Origin: a virus
Length of the DNA stretch: 26,206 nt
Direction: 5' to 3' (one strand)
IMG/VR virus record: IMGVR_UViG_3300035698_026342
Coordinates: 1-26,206 of that record
Under the pieces are notes generated by a model. The model searched no databases. It saw only the letters and a program-made list of their open reading frames with translations, and was not told the origin of the DNA. Position numbers and translations under genes: made by a program. Positions 9,520 to 23,775 of this stretch are shown piece after piece (positions within the stretch are counted from its first letter, which is position 1; the number at the start of each line of letters is the position of its first letter).

Positions 9520-12500
9520 CTAAAACCTCTCATCTTCAATTCTTATTTCTAATTCAGGATTTAATACATCTAAAATCCTATTCTCCGAAGTATCAATTTC
9601 ATCTAAAATTCTAATCATTGGAGGCACAAAAACAACTCTTGCATTTAAGTTATTTTCTCCGGAATACTTCCAACCAGTTCTAGCATTACAAACTAACTCA
9701 TTTGATTCATTAAAAGTCTTAATTCTAGCATCAGCTTTTAATTCATTAGAAAACTCAAAAACTGTTTTAGCGTTCAATAAATTATCTGAATCATACTTGA
9801 TTTTAATCCTAGAATTCACTAAATTGTCATTTAATTCATTTAATAATTTAATTCGTGCATTCAAAAGCTTTTCTTTATTTTCTTTTGATTTAACTCTAGC
9901 ATTAACTAAATTATCATCAAAATAAGAAACAATTACTTTAGCGTTCAATAGTTTTTCTTCTAATTCCCCTATAAGTTTAATTCTGCTTTTTAAAATTAAT
10001 TCAGAATAATCTCCAGCAGTAACTCTAGCGTTTAATAAAACATCATTACTAAATGGCACTTTAATAAAAGAATTCAATAATTTTTCTTCAGAATAACTTA
10101 ATTGAATTTTGGCATTTAATAGTTTTTCATTAAAAGAATTCAATAATTTTATTCTTGCAATTAATAATTTATTTTCTTCTATTTCTTTCTTTATTCTAGC
10201 AATAGCAAGTTTTTCAGAAGAAAAACCAGCTTTAATCATTGCATTTAATAGTTTTTCTTGGTTTTCAGTTACTTTAATAAAAGCATTACATAATTTTATT
10301 TGGTACTTTTCTAATTTAATTCGTGCATTCAAAAGGTTGTCTGAATCATTGGAAACTGTGAGAGTTATTTTGGCATTAAGTAAATTTTCTGATGCATTAT
10401 TTAAAACACTTATTCTTGAGTTGATTAAATTCTGTGAAAACCTTTCTAATTCAATTCTAGCATTTAATAAGATTTCGTTGTTTTTATTTAATTTAATTCT
10501 GGAGTTAAGCAAAACACTATTGAAAAGATTATTTGTTTTAACTCTTGCAATTGATAATTTGTTTTGTCCTTGGCTAGTTTTTATCCTAGAATTAAGAAGA
10601 TTATCGCTGTCTTTTTCAGTTTTAATTCTTGATGAAAGTAATTTATCTGAAAAATCTTCTGTTTTAATTCTCGCATCTAATAAAACATTATTTGATAAAT
10701 TATTGAGTTTTATTCTTGCATTTAATAAATTCTCATTGTTTTTTTCAGTTTTAATTCTTGAATTTAAAACAACATTAGAAAAATACTTTCCAACAATTTC
10801 AATATAGGAATTAAGTAAATTATCTGAAAAAACAAGTAACTTAACTCTCGCATTCAATAAATTATTAGAATTTTCAGCAAGAATAATTGATGCATTGCAT
10901 AGGTTTTCATTAGAATTATTATTAAGTTTAATTCTTGAAGAAACAAGATTTTCTTCTGAAAAATCAACTTTAATTCTAGCGTTCAATAAATTATCTTCAT
11001 TCAAATTTGCTTTAATCCGAGCATTAAGTAATTTCTCTTGATTTAAAGGGACTTTAATTCGTGAAATTAAAAGGTTTTCTGAATTATATTCAATTTGAAT
11101 TCTGGCATTTAATAGTTTTTCATCAAACAGATTATTTATTTTAATTCTAGCGTTCAATAAGTTTTCTGAAGATTTTTCTGCTTTAATTCTAGCATTAAGA
11201 AGATTTTCACTACTTCTAGGAACCTTAATCTTTGCATTTAATGAAAGTTCTGAATTATTTTGTTTCTTTATTCTGGCATTTAGTAATATTTCATCTGAAA
11301 CTGAAACAAGTTTAACTCTGGAATTAAGAAGTTTTTCATTGTCTTTTAAAGTCTTTATTCTTGAATTCAATAAAACTTCATTAGAAAAAGGTACTTTGAT
11401 TCTTGAAAGTAATAGTTTTTCTTCAAAATAACTTATTTGAATTTTTGCTGAAAGTAAAACAACTGAACTGTTATTGTCTATTTTAATTCTTGCATTTAAA
11501 AGATTCTCAGAAGCTAATCCATTTACTTTAATTCTTGAAATAAGCAATTCTTCTGAATTTAATTCTTTTTGAATTCTTGAATTAATTAAATTAATTGAAT
11601 TTAATGGAACCTGAATCATTGAATTTAATAATTTATCTGATGAATAAGTTTGAATTCCAAGATCAATGCTTGCATTTAATAAATTTTCAGAAGTTATGTT
11701 TTTTTTGATTCTTCCTGAAATAAGGTTATCGCTTGTTATTTTTAGATTTATTTTTGCATTCAATAAAACATCTGAATTAGTAGAAATACCTATTCCAGTA
11801 ACATTTTGAACAATAACAACATTTCCACAATAACCATACGCGCCTCTTGAACCTCCAGTTCTTTTAACTGAAAATCCCATATCTGAACCATCAGCAGGTT
11901 CAGTAAAAGAACTTGACCTAATTCTTACATAAGAAGTGCTTGTAGTAGTTACTTCGGTTGCTGCTAATCCACTCCCATCATCAAATAATTCAACTTCAGC
12001 AGAAGTAGAATTAGCTTGTTTGATTGTTGCTTCATTATAAGCAGTAACAGAAACATCTGTCCAAATATTATCGTACAAAGCTTTGTGAGAAGATTCTTCA
12101 CCATAAGTAGAAGAAGAATCAAAATGTCCTAATGAAGACGTTGTTAAATATCCTTGATATTTAGAAACTGGACTTAAATCAACTATAATATACGCGCTTC
12201 TTATTTGTGCTTGAGCAGAAAAAATGCTTGTTTTAATAAAAGTAGTATATTCTGTAGTATCAGCGATTGTTGCTTTTATGCTTCCTGAAGTAATGTTATT
12301 CCAAGTTGTTCCTGTAGCTCCAATTCCTCCTACGGCAGTTCCTCCTCCTACTGGTTGTAATTGAACAGAAGTAGTTCTTCCAGCAACAGAATTTCTAATT
12401 GTTGCATTATAATGAACATCACTAATAGTAGCATAATTACTTGTATCCCAATAAGCGTGTCTTTCATAAGAATTTGAAGCATCTAATGATTCATAAGTAG

Positions 12501-12975
12501 TTGAAGTAGTTATCCCGCTTTGACCAATAGGAATATAAATTCTTGTTTTAGGAGCAGAGTCAGATTCTTGAACAATAACAATTCTTGCTCCGTCTATTAT
12601 TGCATTAGTTCCGCAATGTTTTCTAATTTGAATAATTAAATCTGCTGTGCCTGATGGCATATCATTTACTATATTTGGACTTCTGTTTCTATCCCAACCA
12701 CTTCCATTTACTCCCCAAGGACCTGAAACAATAGATGTACCAGCATAATCATATAATTGCCAGTTAATACCAGGAATAGAATTTGGAAGACAACCTGTTC
12801 CATCACTCATCCAATTTATTTCTACATAAACTTCAGTTATATTAGAATATTTTGAGCCATCCCAAGGAATACAACCTAAAGATAAGTCAGTTGGAGCATA
12901 AGAAGCGCCAGAATTAACTGACCGCATATTATTAAAATCAATGTAACTAACTCGCTTATAAGTAATTTTAATCAC
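9520..12975 (-). CDS. Repeat fibre protein A (1151 aa, about 50 repeats)
   Basis: Residues 1-398 hold two or three beta-sandwich-like domains rich in Gly, Ser, Thr and aromatic residues. Residues 399-1118 are about 50 consecutive units of 14-15 residues, for example 'SENLLNARIKAEK', with invariant-like L-L/I-N-A/S-R-I-K. The C-terminal 30 residues (PPMIRILDEIDTSENRI and following) match fibre protein B. A repeat of this length with a Leu-Leu/Ile core and a polar turn is compatible with a triple beta-spiral or beta-solenoid shaft. The start is uncertain. The open frame begins at GTG 12975, but that GTG is itself part of the AGGTGAT site, and an ATT 9 nt later is at the spacing used elsewhere here. 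Confidence 0.8.
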   Translation of the reverse strand: MIKITYKRVSYIDFNNMRSVNSGASYAPTDLSLGCIPWDGSKYSNITEVYVEINWMSDGTGCLPNSIPGINWQLYDYAGTSIVSGPWGVNGSGWDRNRSPNIVNDMPSGTADLIIQIRKHCGTNAIIDGARIVIVQESDSAPKTRIYIPIGQSGITTSTTYESLDASNSYERHAYWDTSNYATISDVHYNATIRNSVAGRTTSVQLQPVGGGTAVGGIGATGTTWNNITSGSIKATIADTTEYTTFIKTSIFSAQAQIRSAYIIVDLSPVSKYQGYLTTSSLGHFDSSSTYGEESSHKALYDNIWTDVSVTAYNEATIKQANSTSAEVELFDDGSGLAATEVTTTSTSYVRIRSSSFTEPADGSDMGFSVKRTGGSRGAYGYCGNVVIVQNVTGIGISTNSDVLLNAKINLKITSDNLISGRIKKNITSENLLNASIDLGIQTYSSDKLLNSMIQVPLNSINLINSRIQKELNSEELLISRIKVNGLASENLLNARIKIDNNSSVVLLSAKIQISYFEEKLLLSRIKVPFSNEVLLNSRIKTLKDNEKLLNSRVKLVSVSDEILLNARIKKQNNSELSLNAKIKVPRSSENLLNARIKAEKSSENLLNARIKINNLFDEKLLNARIQIEYNSENLLISRIKVPLNQEKLLNARIKANLNEDNLLNARIKVDFSEENLVSSRIKLNNNSNENLCNASIILAENSNNLLNARVKLLVFSDNLLNSYIEIVGKYFSNVVLNSRIKTEKNNENLLNARIKLNNLSNNVLLDARIKTEDFSDKLLSSRIKTEKDSDNLLNSRIKTSQGQNKLSIARVKTNNLFNSVLLNSRIKLNKNNEILLNARIELERFSQNLINSRISVLNNASENLLNAKITLTVSNDSDNLLNARIKLEKYQIKLCNAFIKVTENQEKLLNAMIKAGFSSEKLAIARIKKEIEENKLLIARIKLLNSFNEKLLNAKIQLSYSEEKLLNSFIKVPFSNDVLLNARVTAGDYSELILKSRIKLIGELEEKLLNAKVIVSYFDDNLVNARVKSKENKEKLLNARIKLLNELNDNLVNSRIKIKYDSDNLLNAKTVFEFSNELKADARIKTFNESNELVCNARTGWKYSGENNLNARVVFVPPMIRILDEIDTSENRILDVLNPELEIRIEDERF
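9621..11781 (-). repeat. Tandem 42-45 nt coding repeats (about 50)
   Basis: Longest repeat block of the window, in frame, encoding the shaft of fibre protein A. Copies are diverged from one another, so the selection is on protein pattern and not on DNA identity. A long plus-strand antisense ORF (10109-10807) is a by-product of this periodicity. Confidence 0.9.
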
Positions 12976-18739: not shown

Positions 18740-20178
18740 CTTCTATCAGTGCTTCTTTCTTTATCAGAAACTCTTGGTTTGACTTTTGGTTTTTTACTTC
18801 CCACTTTAGGTTTTCCGGGTCCTTGTTTGTTCCCTTTGTTGAAACTATCTTCGTTGCCATCCTCACCACTCCCTTGCGAAAACATTTGTTGTTTTTTTTC
18901 TTGATCAGTCTGTCGATCTTCAACTGAAAGGTTTCCCTCAATTCCAAGTAAATCTCTAATTTTATTTTCAATATCAGTTTTAGTGTCTTCAGTTAAAGTA
19001 GATGCCATCATAGCCAAATAAGCTTGGACTTCATCTAATTTTTCTTTCATTGACTGCTGACCCCATTGAAGTTTAGGGGTTTCATCTTCATCTACAATAG
19101 ATGATTCAATTTTAAAAATTTGTTGTTCTAAAGGAATCTGAACAGCTAACTGAATTGATTTAACGTGCCTTTGGAAAGTTTCTAATTGAATTTTAGCTAA
19201 CCCTTCAGGAATGTTTCCTAATCCAAGTAATACATAAGGAACTCTTAAATCATAAACTATTTGATTATCATAATGTTCTAAGTATGGTTTAAAATCCATT
19301 GATTTATCTCTAGTTGAAATAATACTAATGTCAGCTAAATAACTTGTAACCCATTCGTTTCTTGATTTTAAAACAGCTAACTCTGAAGCAAAACCAGAAA
19401 TGTCAGTATCTGAAGGAGGATAATCTGGAGTTCCTAATTTAACATGATAAGGAGCATTAGCTTTTCTAGATAAAATAAAACCCATGTCTCTTTCAGCTTG
19501 AATTTTCATTTTTAAAATAGGTAAAATTGGTTCAATTAAAGAAGTTCCATAAGCTCTGTCTCCAATTTTATTGTAAATAAAATGAACTATTTCGTCTGGT
19601 TGAAATTCAATTGGTTTTGCTTGTCCAGTTCCAACAGTTTGTAAATATCCTTCAATGTTTCCTGTTTCATCTCTAACAACAGTCATTGTTTTAGGATGTA
19701 AAATTTTTAGTTCTGCAATAGTTCCTTCGTATTCATCTTCGTTTTTAACTATTTCAACAAAACAATCTCCATAAACTAAAAGGAATTTAACAATTTGTCT
19801 TAATAAAATATCAAAATTTAATCTAGTCATTAATTTATTGCATGATTCAATTACTTGTTCGTTTTCTGCAGTAATGTATAATCCTGGAGAAACAGTAAAA
19901 TCAACTGTTAAATCAACTGCTGCTGCAACCAAAGGAACATGAGTAACAATATCTTCAAAAATTTCTACATCAACAATTCTTTCTTCTCCTTTTTTATCTG
20001 GACTTATTTTTTGTAGTCCTGGAGTAGCAGAAACTAATCCTCTGCCAGAAACTTCATTTAAATAATTATCTAATTTTTCTTCAATAAAAGATTTTTTGTT
20101 TTCAACTTTTAAAACATCAAAAGCACTAACTTTAAAAGACGTAGGTTTTTTTGTTTTAAATAAGTCCTGAATTGCCAT
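18736..20178 (-). CDS. Portal protein (480 aa)
   Basis: Dodecameric ring at one capsid vertex through which DNA is packaged. Recognised by 'VPLVAAAVDLTVDFTVSPGLYI' (residues 80-101), 'ILLRQIVKFLLVYGDCFVEIVK', 'DEIVHFIYNKIGDRAYGTSLIEPIL' and 'LRVPYVLLGLG', the order typical of portal families. The last about 70 residues are a Lys/Gln/Gly-rich disordered tail. The start is leaderless: no Shine-Dalgarno, with a TATA box 26 nt upstream. It is the first gene of the late transcript after the terminase, on the opposite side of the plus-strand island. Confidence 0.85.
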   Translation of the reverse strand: MAIQDLFKTKKPTSFKVSAFDVLKVENKKSFIEEKLDNYLNEVSGRGLVSATPGLQKISPDKKGEERIVDVEIFEDIVTHVPLVAAAVDLTVDFTVSPGLYITAENEQVIESCNKLMTRLNFDILLRQIVKFLLVYGDCFVEIVKNEDEYEGTIAELKILHPKTMTVVRDETGNIEGYLQTVGTGQAKPIEFQPDEIVHFIYNKIGDRAYGTSLIEPILPILKMKIQAERDMGFILSRKANAPYHVKLGTPDYPPSDTDISGFASELAVLKSRNEWVTSYLADISIISTRDKSMDFKPYLEHYDNQIVYDLRVPYVLLGLGNIPEGLAKIQLETFQRHVKSIQLAVQIPLEQQIFKIESSIVDEDETPKLQWGQQSMKEKLDEVQAYLAMMASTLTEDTKTDIENKIRDLLGIEGNLSVEDRQTDQEKKQQMFSQGSGEDGNEDSFNKGNKQGPGKPKVGSKKPKVKPRVSDKERSTDRS

Positions 20179-20210
20179 AGATAATCAATATTCCATTCTA
20201 TTTATAAATT
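20179..20210 (-). promoter_or_regulatory. Portal promoter, leaderless, TATA at -26
   Basis: On the minus strand TTTATAAA (20201-20208) is centred 26 nt before the ATG and is followed directly by TAGAATGGA. The TATA box reads nearly the same on the other strand, so it could also serve the divergent gene at 20265. Confidence 0.65.
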
Positions 20211-20264
20211 TTCTTAATATATTATGTTTGTGTTACTTAATAAATTTTTCGGAGGAGATTGAAT

Positions 20265-20754: not shown

Positions 20755-20892
20755 ATGGATTGTAAAAACTGTGGAATAAAAGGCTATCCCTGGCAATTTA
20801 AAAACGAAGTTTGTTCAGACAAACTCGAATGTAAAGAAAGAATCAATGTTGCCTTACTCCACTTAAACCAAAAGAAGCCTCTGAAATCCTAG
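20755..20892 (+). CDS. Small Cys-rich protein overlapping the TerL end (45 aa)
   Basis: Opens 5 nt after the zinc-ribbon stop: 'MDCKNCGIKGYPWQF' with C-x2-C and then a second pair C-x5-C ('CSDKLEC'). The last 50 nt run antisense through the 3' end of the terminase gene (20843 onward), so the two genes are convergent and overlap. Likely a short zinc finger. No strong ribosome site, but the spacing implies coupling. Confidence 0.5.
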   Translation: MDCKNCGIKGYPWQFKNEVCSDKLECKERINVALLHLNQKKPLKS

Positions 20893-23353
20893 AAGCCCAA
20901 GTAGCCAAACACAACGCATCAACACAATTATGAACTAATATTCCATTAGCAAAAAATTCGTGTTCTTCTTCTACTGTTAAATCATAAACCTTTCCTGTAT
21001 AATTTAACTTTCTCAGGGTTATTAATTCTAAATGCTTTTTGTAGGCACCTGCTTGAACAATATTTGCCTGATTGTTGGAATGAATTATCTTGAAATTCTT
21101 TAAAACATATTTGGCATAATTTTTTAATTGATTTTCTTTTATTTCCAATACTTGTTTCCCAGTGTTTTTTATGCCATTCTCTTCCTTCTTTTGATTTGTG
21201 CCATTTCTTTGTAAGAGGTCTAATTTTATCAACCCAATCTTTTTGTTTTTGAATTCTTTCTTTTGTCCAATTAGCAATGTGTTTAATGGTGTGTTCTTTC
21301 CTTGAAATGCATTCAAGGTTTTCAAGTTTGTTATTGGATTTGTTTCCATCTTTATGATGAATTTCAAATCCTTTGTTAATTTGTCCGTTATAAAATTCCC
21401 AAATATCTCTGTGTAAAAGCCCAAATCCTCCTGCTTTACACCAATAACCTGTTCTTTTATTTTCGTTATATGTTTTTTTATTAAATCTGATTGCCATACA
21501 TAATTTATAGCATCTATTGGTTTATAAGTATTACTCATAGCATCCATTGGTATGAAGCCTTTCTCTTGAGTATAAATTTTGTGTTCAGGCGTTCCAATTA
21601 AAGTTCTTCCATCATTAAATTTTAATTTAACTAATTCTGCGTTTTCTGATTTTAGCCAAGCCCTTGTAACTTTTCTAAAACCTTTTCTTGTTAAAACTAA
21701 ATCGCCTACGATTATTTCTTCAATAGGTTTTTGTCCATTAATCGTTGTTATTAAAGTTCCTTCTAAAAGACAATCATCTGAGCTACCCATCATGTGATGT
21801 AATTTCTTTTTACCAGTAGCACCAACCAACTCATACCGAAACGTTCCTAATTCATAAATTAATTTATCATGCCGAGGAATAGTAATTAAACCTTTCTCCA
21901 TTTGAACCAACAAATAATCAAAAGCTTCTTCTTTTCTATCCAAAGTCGGCTTAAAAAAAATAACAGGCAAATGCTCTAATCTCAACCTCTCACACAAAGG
22001 CAAACTTAAACCTGCATATTCTGCCATAACTCGCTTACATTTATAGATTTTTTGTAATCTAATAATTTCTTGCAACTGAATAGCAAAAGGAACTTTATCT
22101 AATTCTTTAAGTCTTTCCACTCGAACTTCTCCATTAAGCTGCTTAGAAACAACAATAATGACAGTCTGGTCTCGAATTCTACCCCAGTCAATTCCCATGA
22201 AATAAACTTGATCCGGGCTAGTTGGACTTAAAACAGGATCATATTCACGAATACAACGTTCAATTAGTTCGCGCGGAAAAAAATTAGAAATAGACTCTAA
22301 GAATTCAGCGTTAATTTCATTATCATATCTTTGACTTGAAAGCGTTTTTTTTGCTTGTTCTAAATAATCTCGGCTTAAATACTTATTATCAAAAGAAGTT
22401 AAATGCATTGAATGATAAGCTGGATTATTCCAACAATTCCAAAACATTCCCTCACACCCCGCAGGGGAGCTGAAAAGATGTAAGCCTCCATTTAACCTGG
22501 AAAGCATTGGTTCTACTGCAGCAAAAGAATCTTCTCCAATTCCATGCGCAACTTCATTCATAAAAGCATCAGTAACCTCAGTAAAACCTCTAATATAAGA
22601 AGTAGCCGGTAAAGCATACATTTTACTGCCATTCTTAAATTCCATGATTTCCATAGTAGAAGACTTAATGGAAGCAAACAATTCATCAGAATTACCAATC
22701 CAAGCTTTAATACGATTAAACAACAAATCCGACTGACGTTGAGCAGGAGAAACAATAACAATCTTTCGATTACTACAAGTAACACATAACCACAAAGCAT
22801 AACAAGAAATAGTGAAATCTTTGCCAACCTGCCGGCCTAAATTAAAAATGTTTCTTTTATTCTTTTGCATCATCGAAACCATTTTAATTTGATAATGCTG
22901 CAATTCAACTCCCAAAACCTCCTTACAAAACAAATAAATGCCCAAAGCATCCTTAGTAATAAATTCATTGATTTCAGCAACAGAAAACTTAGATTGCAAA
23001 TTAATTAACTCTATAGCAGAAAACCAACCCAACCACCTTTTAAGCTGCCAGTCATAAAAAAAAGCTTTAGTTTCCGGTTTCTCCACTGACTCGCCTTTAA
23101 GATACCGAACTCGAGAAGAAAGGTCATCTTCATTCTTATCGTCTTTAAACATATTCTTAACAGTAACACGATAATCCTTCACCGATAATCCAGCTCGATT
23201 CATAGCAGCATACAAAGTTTGCACAGGAACCTCAAAAACCTTAGCAATATCCGTGCCCGTTTTGCCATCCTTAAGCATATCTTTAATTTGATTCATTTTA
23301 GCTTTAGACCACTTAGGTTCTGATTTTCTAAAACCAAAAGGATTACTAGCCAT
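20843..23353 (-). CDS. terL: Large terminase subunit with intein (836 aa precursor)
   Basis: ATP-driven DNA packaging motor and nuclease. Extein features: Walker A-like 'GRQVGKDF' (173-180), a Walker B-like 'DAFMNEVAHG' (262-271) with Asn instead of the usual Asp before Glu, nuclease motif I 'GIDWG' with D389, motif II 'AEYAG' with E445, and motif III 'DD-CVDALCLA' split by the intein after D527. Residues 14-60 are a helix-turn-helix domain of small-terminase type ('GTDIAKVFEVPVQTLYAAM'), so TerS-like DNA recognition appears fused to TerL. The start ATG has no ribosome site and a weak TATA-like TTTATCTA about 26 nt upstream. The spliced protein would be 554 aa. Confidence 0.9.
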   Translation of the reverse strand: MASNPFGFRKSEPKWSKAKMNQIKDMLKDGKTGTDIAKVFEVPVQTLYAAMNRAGLSVKDYRVTVKNMFKDDKNEDDLSSRVRYLKGESVEKPETKAFFYDWQLKRWLGWFSAIELINLQSKFSVAEINEFITKDALGIYLFCKEVLGVELQHYQIKMVSMMQKNKRNIFNLGRQVGKDFTISCYALWLCVTCSNRKIVIVSPAQRQSDLLFNRIKAWIGNSDELFASIKSSTMEIMEFKNGSKMYALPATSYIRGFTEVTDAFMNEVAHGIGEDSFAAVEPMLSRLNGGLHLFSSPAGCEGMFWNCWNNPAYHSMHLTSFDNKYLSRDYLEQAKKTLSSQRYDNEINAEFLESISNFFPRELIERCIREYDPVLSPTSPDQVYFMGIDWGRIRDQTVIIVVSKQLNGEVRVERLKELDKVPFAIQLQEIIRLQKIYKCKRVMAEYAGLSLPLCERLRLEHLPVIFFKPTLDRKEEAFDYLLVQMEKGLITIPRHDKLIYELGTFRYELVGATGKKKLHHMMGSSDDCLLEGTLITTINGQKPIEEIIVGDLVLTRKGFRKVTRAWLKSENAELVKLKFNDGRTLIGTPEHKIYTQEKGFIPMDAMSNTYKPIDAINYVWQSDLIKKHITKIKEQVIGVKQEDLGFYTEIFGNFITDKLTKDLKFIIKMETNPITNLKTLNAFQGKNTPLNTLLIGQKKEFKNKKIGLIKLDLLQRNGTNQKKEENGIKNTGKQVLEIKENQLKNYAKYVLKNFKIIHSNNQANIVQAGAYKKHLELITLRKLNYTGKVYDLTVEEEHEFFANGILVHNCVDALCLATWASRISEASFGLSGVRQH
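20982..21497 (-). CDS. HNH homing endonuclease nested in the intein, other frame (171 aa)
   Basis: Lies wholly inside the intein, offset by -1 relative to the TerL frame. It has a full HNH domain: 'FEIHHKDGN' (H47, H48, D50), N56/N60 and H69, preceded by 'LLHRDIWEFYNGQI', which is the phage HNH pattern. A C-terminal C-x2-C/C-x3-C zinc finger ('CQIC' and 'CSSRC') follows. The protein starts at ATG 21497. A TATA-like TTATAAAC lies about 27 nt upstream and no Shine-Dalgarno is seen, so a leaderless transcript of its own is possible. In the same frame a stop (TAA) lies 27 nt upstream, which argues against an in-frame fusion. The intein frame has no stop over the same 171 codons. Confidence 0.85.
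   Translation of the reverse strand: MAIRFNKKTYNENKRTGYWCKAGGFGLLHRDIWEFYNGQINKGFEIHHKDGNKSNNKLENLECISRKEHTIKHIANWTKERIQKQKDWVDKIRPLTKKWHKSKEGREWHKKHWETSIGNKRKSIKKLCQICFKEFQDNSFQQSGKYCSSRCLQKAFRINNPEKVKLYRKGL
21519..21528 (-). promoter_or_regulatory. Candidate TATA box for the nested HNH gene
   Basis: CTTATAAACC on the minus strand, about 27 nt before ATG 21497. Position fits a leaderless archaeal start. TATA-like words are common in this AT-rich DNA, so confidence is low. Confidence 0.35.
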
Positions 23354-23599: not shown

Positions 23600-23668
23600 T
23601 GAAAAGTGAGGGATTCAAACCCCCTCGCCAAAAAAAAGGCTTTATCGTGCCACAATCTACTTCTTTCC
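23600..23668 (-). tRNA. tRNA-like remnant (degenerate)
   Basis: Minus strand: a 3' acceptor-like ACTTTTC pairs with GGAAAGA at the other end (six of seven pairs, one of them wobble). A T-arm-like GGGGG / TTTGAAT / CCCTC stands next to it. The length of 69 nt is short, the T-loop lacks the conserved C, and I could not fold an anticodon arm: the expected place has GCC, eight T, GGC. Probably a decayed tRNA gene. Confidence 0.3.
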
Positions 23669-23703
23669 CAGTTAAATAAATCATTCACCGAAATAAATAA
23701 AAA

Positions 23704-23775
23704 TGGACCCGGAGGGAATCGAACCCTCAATCGCCTGGTTGCAAACCAGGAATGTAACCATTACACCGCGCGCCC
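23704..23775 (-). tRNA. tRNA-Ala (anticodon UGC)
   Basis: 72 nt. Anticodon stem CCTGG/CCAGG with loop TTTGCAA, anticodon TGC. T-arm GAGGG / TTCGATT / CCCTC. D-arm GTGT/ACAT with loop AATGGTT. Acceptor GGGCGCG/CGGGTCC carries the G3-U70 pair, the alanine identity element, and discriminator A; one mismatch (position 5-68). CCA is not encoded; TTTTTATTT follows. C at position 8 and the D-arm are unusual for tRNA-Ala. Confidence 0.75.

Follow-up and report, generated by a model that had tools for sequence, protein, structure and literature searches.

The window analyzed here, a 26,206-nucleotide stretch of viral DNA (IMG/VR record IMGVR_UViG_3300035698_026342), encodes a terminase large subunit (TerL) interrupted by an intein, and the linker of this mini-intein very probably harbors a nested, independently translated gene for an HNH homing endonuclease; no expression, cleavage or splicing data are available for this locus. 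The putative composite mobile element would consist of a gp41-1-like Hint mini-intein inserted in TerL and, within the DNA of its linker, a complete gene for an HNH_3 zinc-finger protein in another reading frame. The initial annotation of this DNA proposed just such an independent HNH gene overlapping a splicing-competent mini-intein, and the comparative evidence presented below supports that proposal.

The TerL intein and the HNH ORF in its linker

The coordinates of the relevant features are given in Table 1. The N-extein aligns in tblastn searches with the TerL proteins of Halogranum tailed virus 1, Thermus phage P23-45 and others, and several of these alignments end exactly at residue 527; the intein is inserted at a TerL nuclease motif (...DD^C(V)DAL). 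The intein frame is uninterrupted from C1 (codon 21770-21772) to N282 (codon 20927-20929), which is followed by C+1, and contains all the splicing blocks (C1, TPEH and VHN/C); the ORF listing and the Pfam and NCBIfam matches agree with the open 282-codon frame with complete splicing blocks described in the initial annotation. C1, H64 and N282 are invariant in an alignment of 61 inteins. The best PDB match of the window intein is the gp41-1 intein (6qaz, E=5.5e-8, TMt 0.86), and in the AlphaFold model the Hint halves have a pLDDT of ~97, compared to ~50 for the overlapped linker of ~160 residues. The sequence and structural criteria for an intein are satisfied, namely, the terminal and block B residues, the Hint fold, and a conserved insertion site with empty alleles in relatives. 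The window intein is a single ORF, so the two-ORF criterion for a split intein is not met. No group I intron was detected in the window by the Rfam search, which yielded only a tRNA, and the TerL ORF is unbroken.

Table 1. Features of the TerL locus in the window
Feature	Coordinates	Strand	Basis
TerL ORF with in-frame intein, 836 aa	20843..23353	-	PHROG phrog_2, E=2.7e-40; ORF listing
TerL N-extein, 527 aa, ends ...SSDD	21773..23353	-	tblastn to other TerL proteins
Intein, 282 aa, C1 to N282	20927..21772	-	Intein_splicing, Hint_2, TIGR01443, TIGR01445
Hint N-terminal splicing half (blocks A and B), outside the overlap	21498..21772	-	conserved T61 and H64; pLDDT ~97, residues 1-90
Block B, TPEH	21581-21592	-	
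TAA in the HNH frame, upstream of the HNH ATG	21522..21524	-	read from the sequence; stop-to-stop ORF bounds
Nested HNH_3 homing endonuclease ORF, 171 aa plus TGA, frame +2 relative to TerL	20982..21497	-	Pfam, PHROG
HNH catalytic region, H29 to H69 (HH-D-N-H)	21291..21413	-	invariant residues
C4 zinc finger of the HNH protein, C128 to C151	21045..21116	-	invariant cysteines
Hint C-terminal splicing half (blocks F and G, ...VYDLTVEEEHEFFANGILVHN)	20927..21025	-	TIGR01443; pLDDT 96-98
TerL C-extein from C+1 (CVDALCLA...)	20843..20926	-	homologous junction in relatives and empty sites

The ORF in the other frame matches the Pfam HNH_3 profile (E=7e-17; 61.2 bits against a cutoff of 24.8) and a PHROG of HNH endonucleases (E=1e-22); its best PDB match is I-HmuI (1u3e), and its AlphaFold model has a pLDDT of 94.2. 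Eight residues, H29, H47, H48, D50, N55, N56, N60 and H69, are invariant in 55 nested HNH proteins, as are the cysteines C128, C131, C147 and C151 across 55 HNH sequences, and the window copy retains all the catalytic and zinc residues. An in-frame TAA sits 24 nt before the HNH ATG. At the other end, block F supplies the stop: the codons for Tyr and Asp in its VYDL motif yield the TGA of the HNH gene, which thus terminates at the start of the C-terminal Hint half. Tyr-[Asp/Asn] codons provide the stop in 17 of the 70 copies with the common frame relation (see below), a count that includes the window. Thus, the ORF is complete from ATG to TGA and lies wholly inside the intein in another frame, as originally noted, and with HNH and splicing blocks in different frames, the locus does not fit the classical arrangement with an in-frame endonuclease domain.

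Several further observations concern the window and database entries. Three PHROGs (phrog_35162, phrog_28563 and phrog_30251) match the intein including the overlapped linker and may, in part, represent other-frame translations of HNH genes. A tRNA-Ala(TGC) is located at 23704-23775 on the minus strand, and a second sequence that looks tRNA-like, at ~23604-23670, was not called by ARAGORN. The minus-strand ORF at 9520-12975 encodes a 1151-aa protein that consists largely of many degenerate LLNARIK-type repeats.

Out-of-frame HNH genes in the inteins of other phages

A single-sequence search yielded four loci, every one with the same nesting. A profile scan added 80 loci, and the resulting HNH set comprised 87 ORFs from viral contigs, including the window. 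Among these profile-selected relatives, 76 are enclosed from end to end by a longer ORF read in another frame, and in none of the 87 is the HNH domain fused in frame to a longer host ORF. All 76 host ORFs show intein splicing blocks, and nearly all are TerL. The frame relation of the window is shared by 70 of the 76 nested copies, the remaining six being in the other frame, and the HNH ORF begins at intein residue ~80-110 in nearly all of them. The inteins are inserted mainly in TerL nuclease motif III, but also in motif I and near Walker B, the motif names being our own reading of the flanking sequences. In one of the four loci from the single-sequence search (L005:656-3982), a single TerL is interrupted by two inteins, inserted at different nuclease motifs, and each of them contains a separate out-of-frame HNH.

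The same nesting is found in Acinetobacter phage Highwayman, Rhodobacteraceae phage LS06-2018-MD07, Tetrasphaera phage TJE1 and a Bacteroides mediterraneensis genome. A scan of a genome collection produced 11 loci, among them one nested intein and one methylase case (see below); the DNA-pattern search samples only HNH proteins that carry two conserved motifs. Out-of-frame HNH nesting is a common phage architecture that is not peculiar to the window.

Mobility of the intein-HNH unit

The unit consisting of the intein and the HNH gene is present in two related loci, L109 and L110, and exactly absent from a third, L111, whose empty TerL gene has flanks that are 94-99% identical in DNA sequence on both sides. 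In this TerL family, 3 of the 56 loci examined are occupied by an intein, and in another, 5 of 14 (counted from the listed rows). Such empty-site polymorphism would result from either gain or loss, and the direction is not distinguished by these comparisons. Mobility is apparent in relatives but not for the window copy itself, given that a search with the whole TerL protein found no close relative of the window TerL. That cleavage by the HNH protein is the mechanism of homing is an inference, in the absence of cleavage data.

The association with terminase genes leaves some room for a different function, that of an accessory packaging nuclease that acts with TerL and is merely stored in the intein. 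Nearly all copies of the HNH gene lie in or beside terL, the free-standing relatives adjoin terS or terL, and HNH nucleases near terminases can aid cos cleavage; the HNH nuclease of phage HK97 is reported to act with TerL (discussed in PMC10448857). Against a packaging function, the element is sporadic, with near-identical empty TerL alleles, it moves within the intein at several TerL sites, and the nearest solved structure is that of a homing endonuclease, I-HmuI. We therefore consider a packaging nuclease unlikely and retain the homing endonuclease as the preferred interpretation.

Selection on the overlapping reading frames

Within the overlap in the window, the third reading frame contains 27 stops. 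Given the HNH protein, the intein frame remains open in 2% of the shuffles of the gene's own codons and in 4% of the draws from host gene codon usage; such an outcome is no more than moderately improbable, given that only HNH codons with T at position 2 can create a stop in this frame relation. The initial annotation relied on the openness of both frames, and both are indeed open, but taken alone, the window is not decisive (P 0.02-0.04), and it is the family as a whole that makes the result significant.

In the 76 intein frames, no stops were observed compared to ~239 expected from synonymous-codon shuffling within each HNH gene, while the third frame of the nested loci holds 1345 stops. With one copy retained per 50%-identity cluster (n=41), there were again no stops versus 113 expected, the minimum in 3000 shuffles being 85. 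Openness was itself the criterion for calling a copy nested, so the appropriate controls are the 11 non-nested HNH relatives, in which the two other frames contain 80 stops versus 80.3 expected and 259 versus 262 expected, respectively. In these controls, the cost of stop avoidance per HNH gene is ~7 stops in the preferred frame and ~24 in the other one, which accounts for the frame bias among the nested copies, 70 of the 76 being in the cheaper frame.

The pattern of divergence differs between the overlap and its flanks. In all 14 disjoint pairs, the fastest-diverging position of the overlap is HNH codon position 3, and in the common frame relation, where this position is the second position of intein codons, its divergence is 0.40 as opposed to 0.22 and 0.18 at the other two; in the flanking Hint halves, intein codon position 3 is the fastest. 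The identity of the linker in the intein frame is 0.308, a slight excess over the 0.282 expected from HNH conservation alone, which suggests that the linker is under little amino acid constraint. Taken together, the fast third positions and the near-forced linker identity indicate that the HNH is conserved as a protein, with the intein frame merely kept open, in agreement with the structure models, in which the HNH and the Hint halves are confident and the linker is not. The initial annotation suggested a per-frame test of selection; divergence by codon position reveals protein-level selection in the HNH frame. The overlapped DNA is selected for the HNH protein sequence and, in the intein frame, only for the lack of stops.

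These results bear on the possibility that the overlap in the window is a decaying relic, with an HNH that is no longer under selection and an intein frame that is open by chance. The long branch of the window HNH, the lack of a Shine-Dalgarno sequence (see below) and the borderline probability of openness in a single copy are compatible with decay. Against a relic, all catalytic and zinc residues of the window copy are intact, its model is confident, and the selection in the HNH frame is family-wide; we consider decay very unlikely, and an HNH gene under selection remains the favored explanation.

Expression of the nested gene

A start codon is present at a homologous place in nearly all nested copies, and a Shine-Dalgarno match of at least 5 nt precedes 41% of them, compared to 7% of background starts; this comparison uses the best start candidate, and the match rate is accordingly inflated for those loci, a minority, that offer several. 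The HNH start in the window has no recognizable Shine-Dalgarno sequence. We infer that the HNH protein is made by independent internal initiation, without expression data and without a demonstration for the window virus.

A TATA-like box, TTATAAA, is located ~27 nt upstream of the HNH ATG (window 21500-21530), and a similar box precedes the portal gene at the same spacing (window 20160-20250); occurrence by chance is not excluded. Together with the similarity of TerL to those of haloarchaeal and Nitrososphaera viruses, these boxes hint at an archaeal host and leaderless initiation.

The main alternative to internal initiation is programmed -1 ribosomal frameshifting from the TerL-intein frame, which would produce a fusion of the N-extein, the N-terminal Hint half and the HNH. 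The predominant frame relation (74/80) is the one reachable by a -1 shift, and some relatives lack a Shine-Dalgarno sequence, as frameshifting would allow. A slippery heptamer in the frame where a frameshift would need one was nevertheless found in only 6 of the 76 loci, the window not among them, in line with the absence of a slippery site and the presence of a stop before the ATG reported in the initial annotation. Furthermore, the HNH frame is open upstream of the start for a median of only 36 nt, six copies are in the other frame, and the internal start codon is conserved with Shine-Dalgarno enrichment, so that frameshifting appears highly improbable and separate translation of the HNH is preferred.

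Finally, a sequencing or assembly error, or two compensating frameshift mutations that displaced an in-frame HNH, would yield an out-of-frame HNH in an open intein in a single contig; the initial annotation disfavored both, suggesting a search for the overlap in relatives and naming in-frame HNH relatives without an overlap as a refutation, and both are effectively ruled out, given that the arrangement recurs in four genomes of isolates or prophages and in 73 further viral contigs, that no in-frame version exists among the 87 relatives, and that the HNH gene has its own start and stop.

Free-standing, nested and split states

Members of the same HNH family also occur outside contiguous inteins. 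Free-standing genes are located directly downstream of an intact terL in L032, L064, L098, L100 and Pseudomonas phage PAE1. In nine relatives, the HNH gene lies between the halves of a split TerL intein (L021, L039, L057, L068, L069, L103, L099 from Staphylococcus borealis, L090 from Lactobacillus phage CL2 and L092 from Vibrio phage 1.238.A). These split copies no longer avoid stops, as expected if the openness constraint is released. Where annotated, the split loci are entered as a plain terminase plus an HNH or hint-domain protein. In Exiguobacterium phage vB_EauM-23 (L087), TerL stops abruptly at the intein site (NNHSMAA) and the HNH gene comes next, possibly a broken or unusual split arrangement.

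Most inner forks of the HNH tree, which is deep and places the window HNH on a long branch, lack support, so that the order of the free, nested and split states is unresolved. The deep congruence between HNH and Hint is weak (Mantel r 0.52 overall and 0.15 for distant pairs), and swaps of HNH genes between inteins are therefore not excluded. Given that a single HNH family is represented around TerL by free-standing, nested and split forms alike, we tentatively propose that nesting is a widespread, separately evolved way of arming inteins, an intermediate between a free terL-adjacent HNH gene and a passenger, from which a stop in the linker would generate a natural split intein; this scenario is plausible, with the odds slightly against it.

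Comparison with known systems

The closest precedents are the ShiLan domain and the Pacc40 insertion in mycobacteriophage DNA methylases, out-of-frame HNH insertions without splicing domains (Arsenault, Gosselin and Gogarten 2025, PMC11855218). In these elements, as in the nested family described here, the host frame is open through an HNH ORF in another frame that has its own start and stop, and the distribution is sporadic and homing-like. The ShiLan insertion has no splicing domain and persists as a loop in the host protein, whereas the overlap in the window is the linker of a full Hint intein and should be spliced out, as inferred from its splicing residues. A full-text search for an out-of-frame HNH in a contiguous intein retrieved only the ShiLan paper and a genome announcement citing such an element; a 2025 preprint on non-canonical actinobacteriophage inteins, cited in the ShiLan paper, may overlap with the nested-HNH finding. 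The ShiLan arrangement itself was detected outside actinobacteriophages, in Oceanobacillus sojae, where an N6/N4 DNA methylase ORF (L106:843-2576) encloses an out-of-frame HNH_3 ORF and shows no detectable Hint blocks.

In the so-called fractured genes, a homing endonuclease gene reportedly separates the two halves of a split intein. Both PMC3229294 and PMC8228797 cite Dassa et al. 2009 for this layout. Fractured genes share with the present family a gp41-1-type Hint domain and a separate endonuclease gene between its halves; they differ in that the window intein is contiguous, with a cis-splicing layout, and the endonuclease gene overlaps the intein ORF.

In classical inteins, such as PI-SceI, the homing endonuclease is found at a conserved insertion site (PMC6801210). 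As in the window, the endonuclease information is located between the N- and C-terminal halves of Hint, but the classical nuclease is a same-frame domain of the spliced-out intein, whereas that of the window is encoded in a different frame as a protein of its own. Phage HNH homing genes can also be free-standing and reside beside the target gene, as in collaborative homing (PMC10448857); the present HNH family includes genes in such a position, downstream of intact terL, but free-standing genes are outside the target gene and have no splicing element. The nearest solved HNH relative, I-HmuI, is borne by a group I intron, whereas the host ORF in the window is open without RNA splicing.

Implications

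Under the proposed mechanism, TerL and the intein would be translated as one protein from which the intein excises itself, leaving the packaging motor functional, as can be predicted from the intact splicing residues. The HNH protein would be translated separately, from a start codon internal to the intein coding sequence; this is inferred, a Shine-Dalgarno sequence being present at that start in many relatives but not in the window. It would then cut intein-free terL alleles, and repair would copy the whole intein-plus-HNH unit, as the empty-site polymorphism in relatives suggests.

Textbook inteins contain the homing nuclease as a domain that is read in the same frame and removed with the rest of the intein. 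Here, splicing and nuclease functions are assigned to separate proteins encoded on one stretch of DNA that is kept open in dozens of lineages, and the most-used frame is that with the lowest cost of stop avoidance. Annotation often lists only one of the two genes, for example, only the terminase in one record. Given that the same HNH family is also found between split intein halves, the origin of natural split inteins becomes directly testable.
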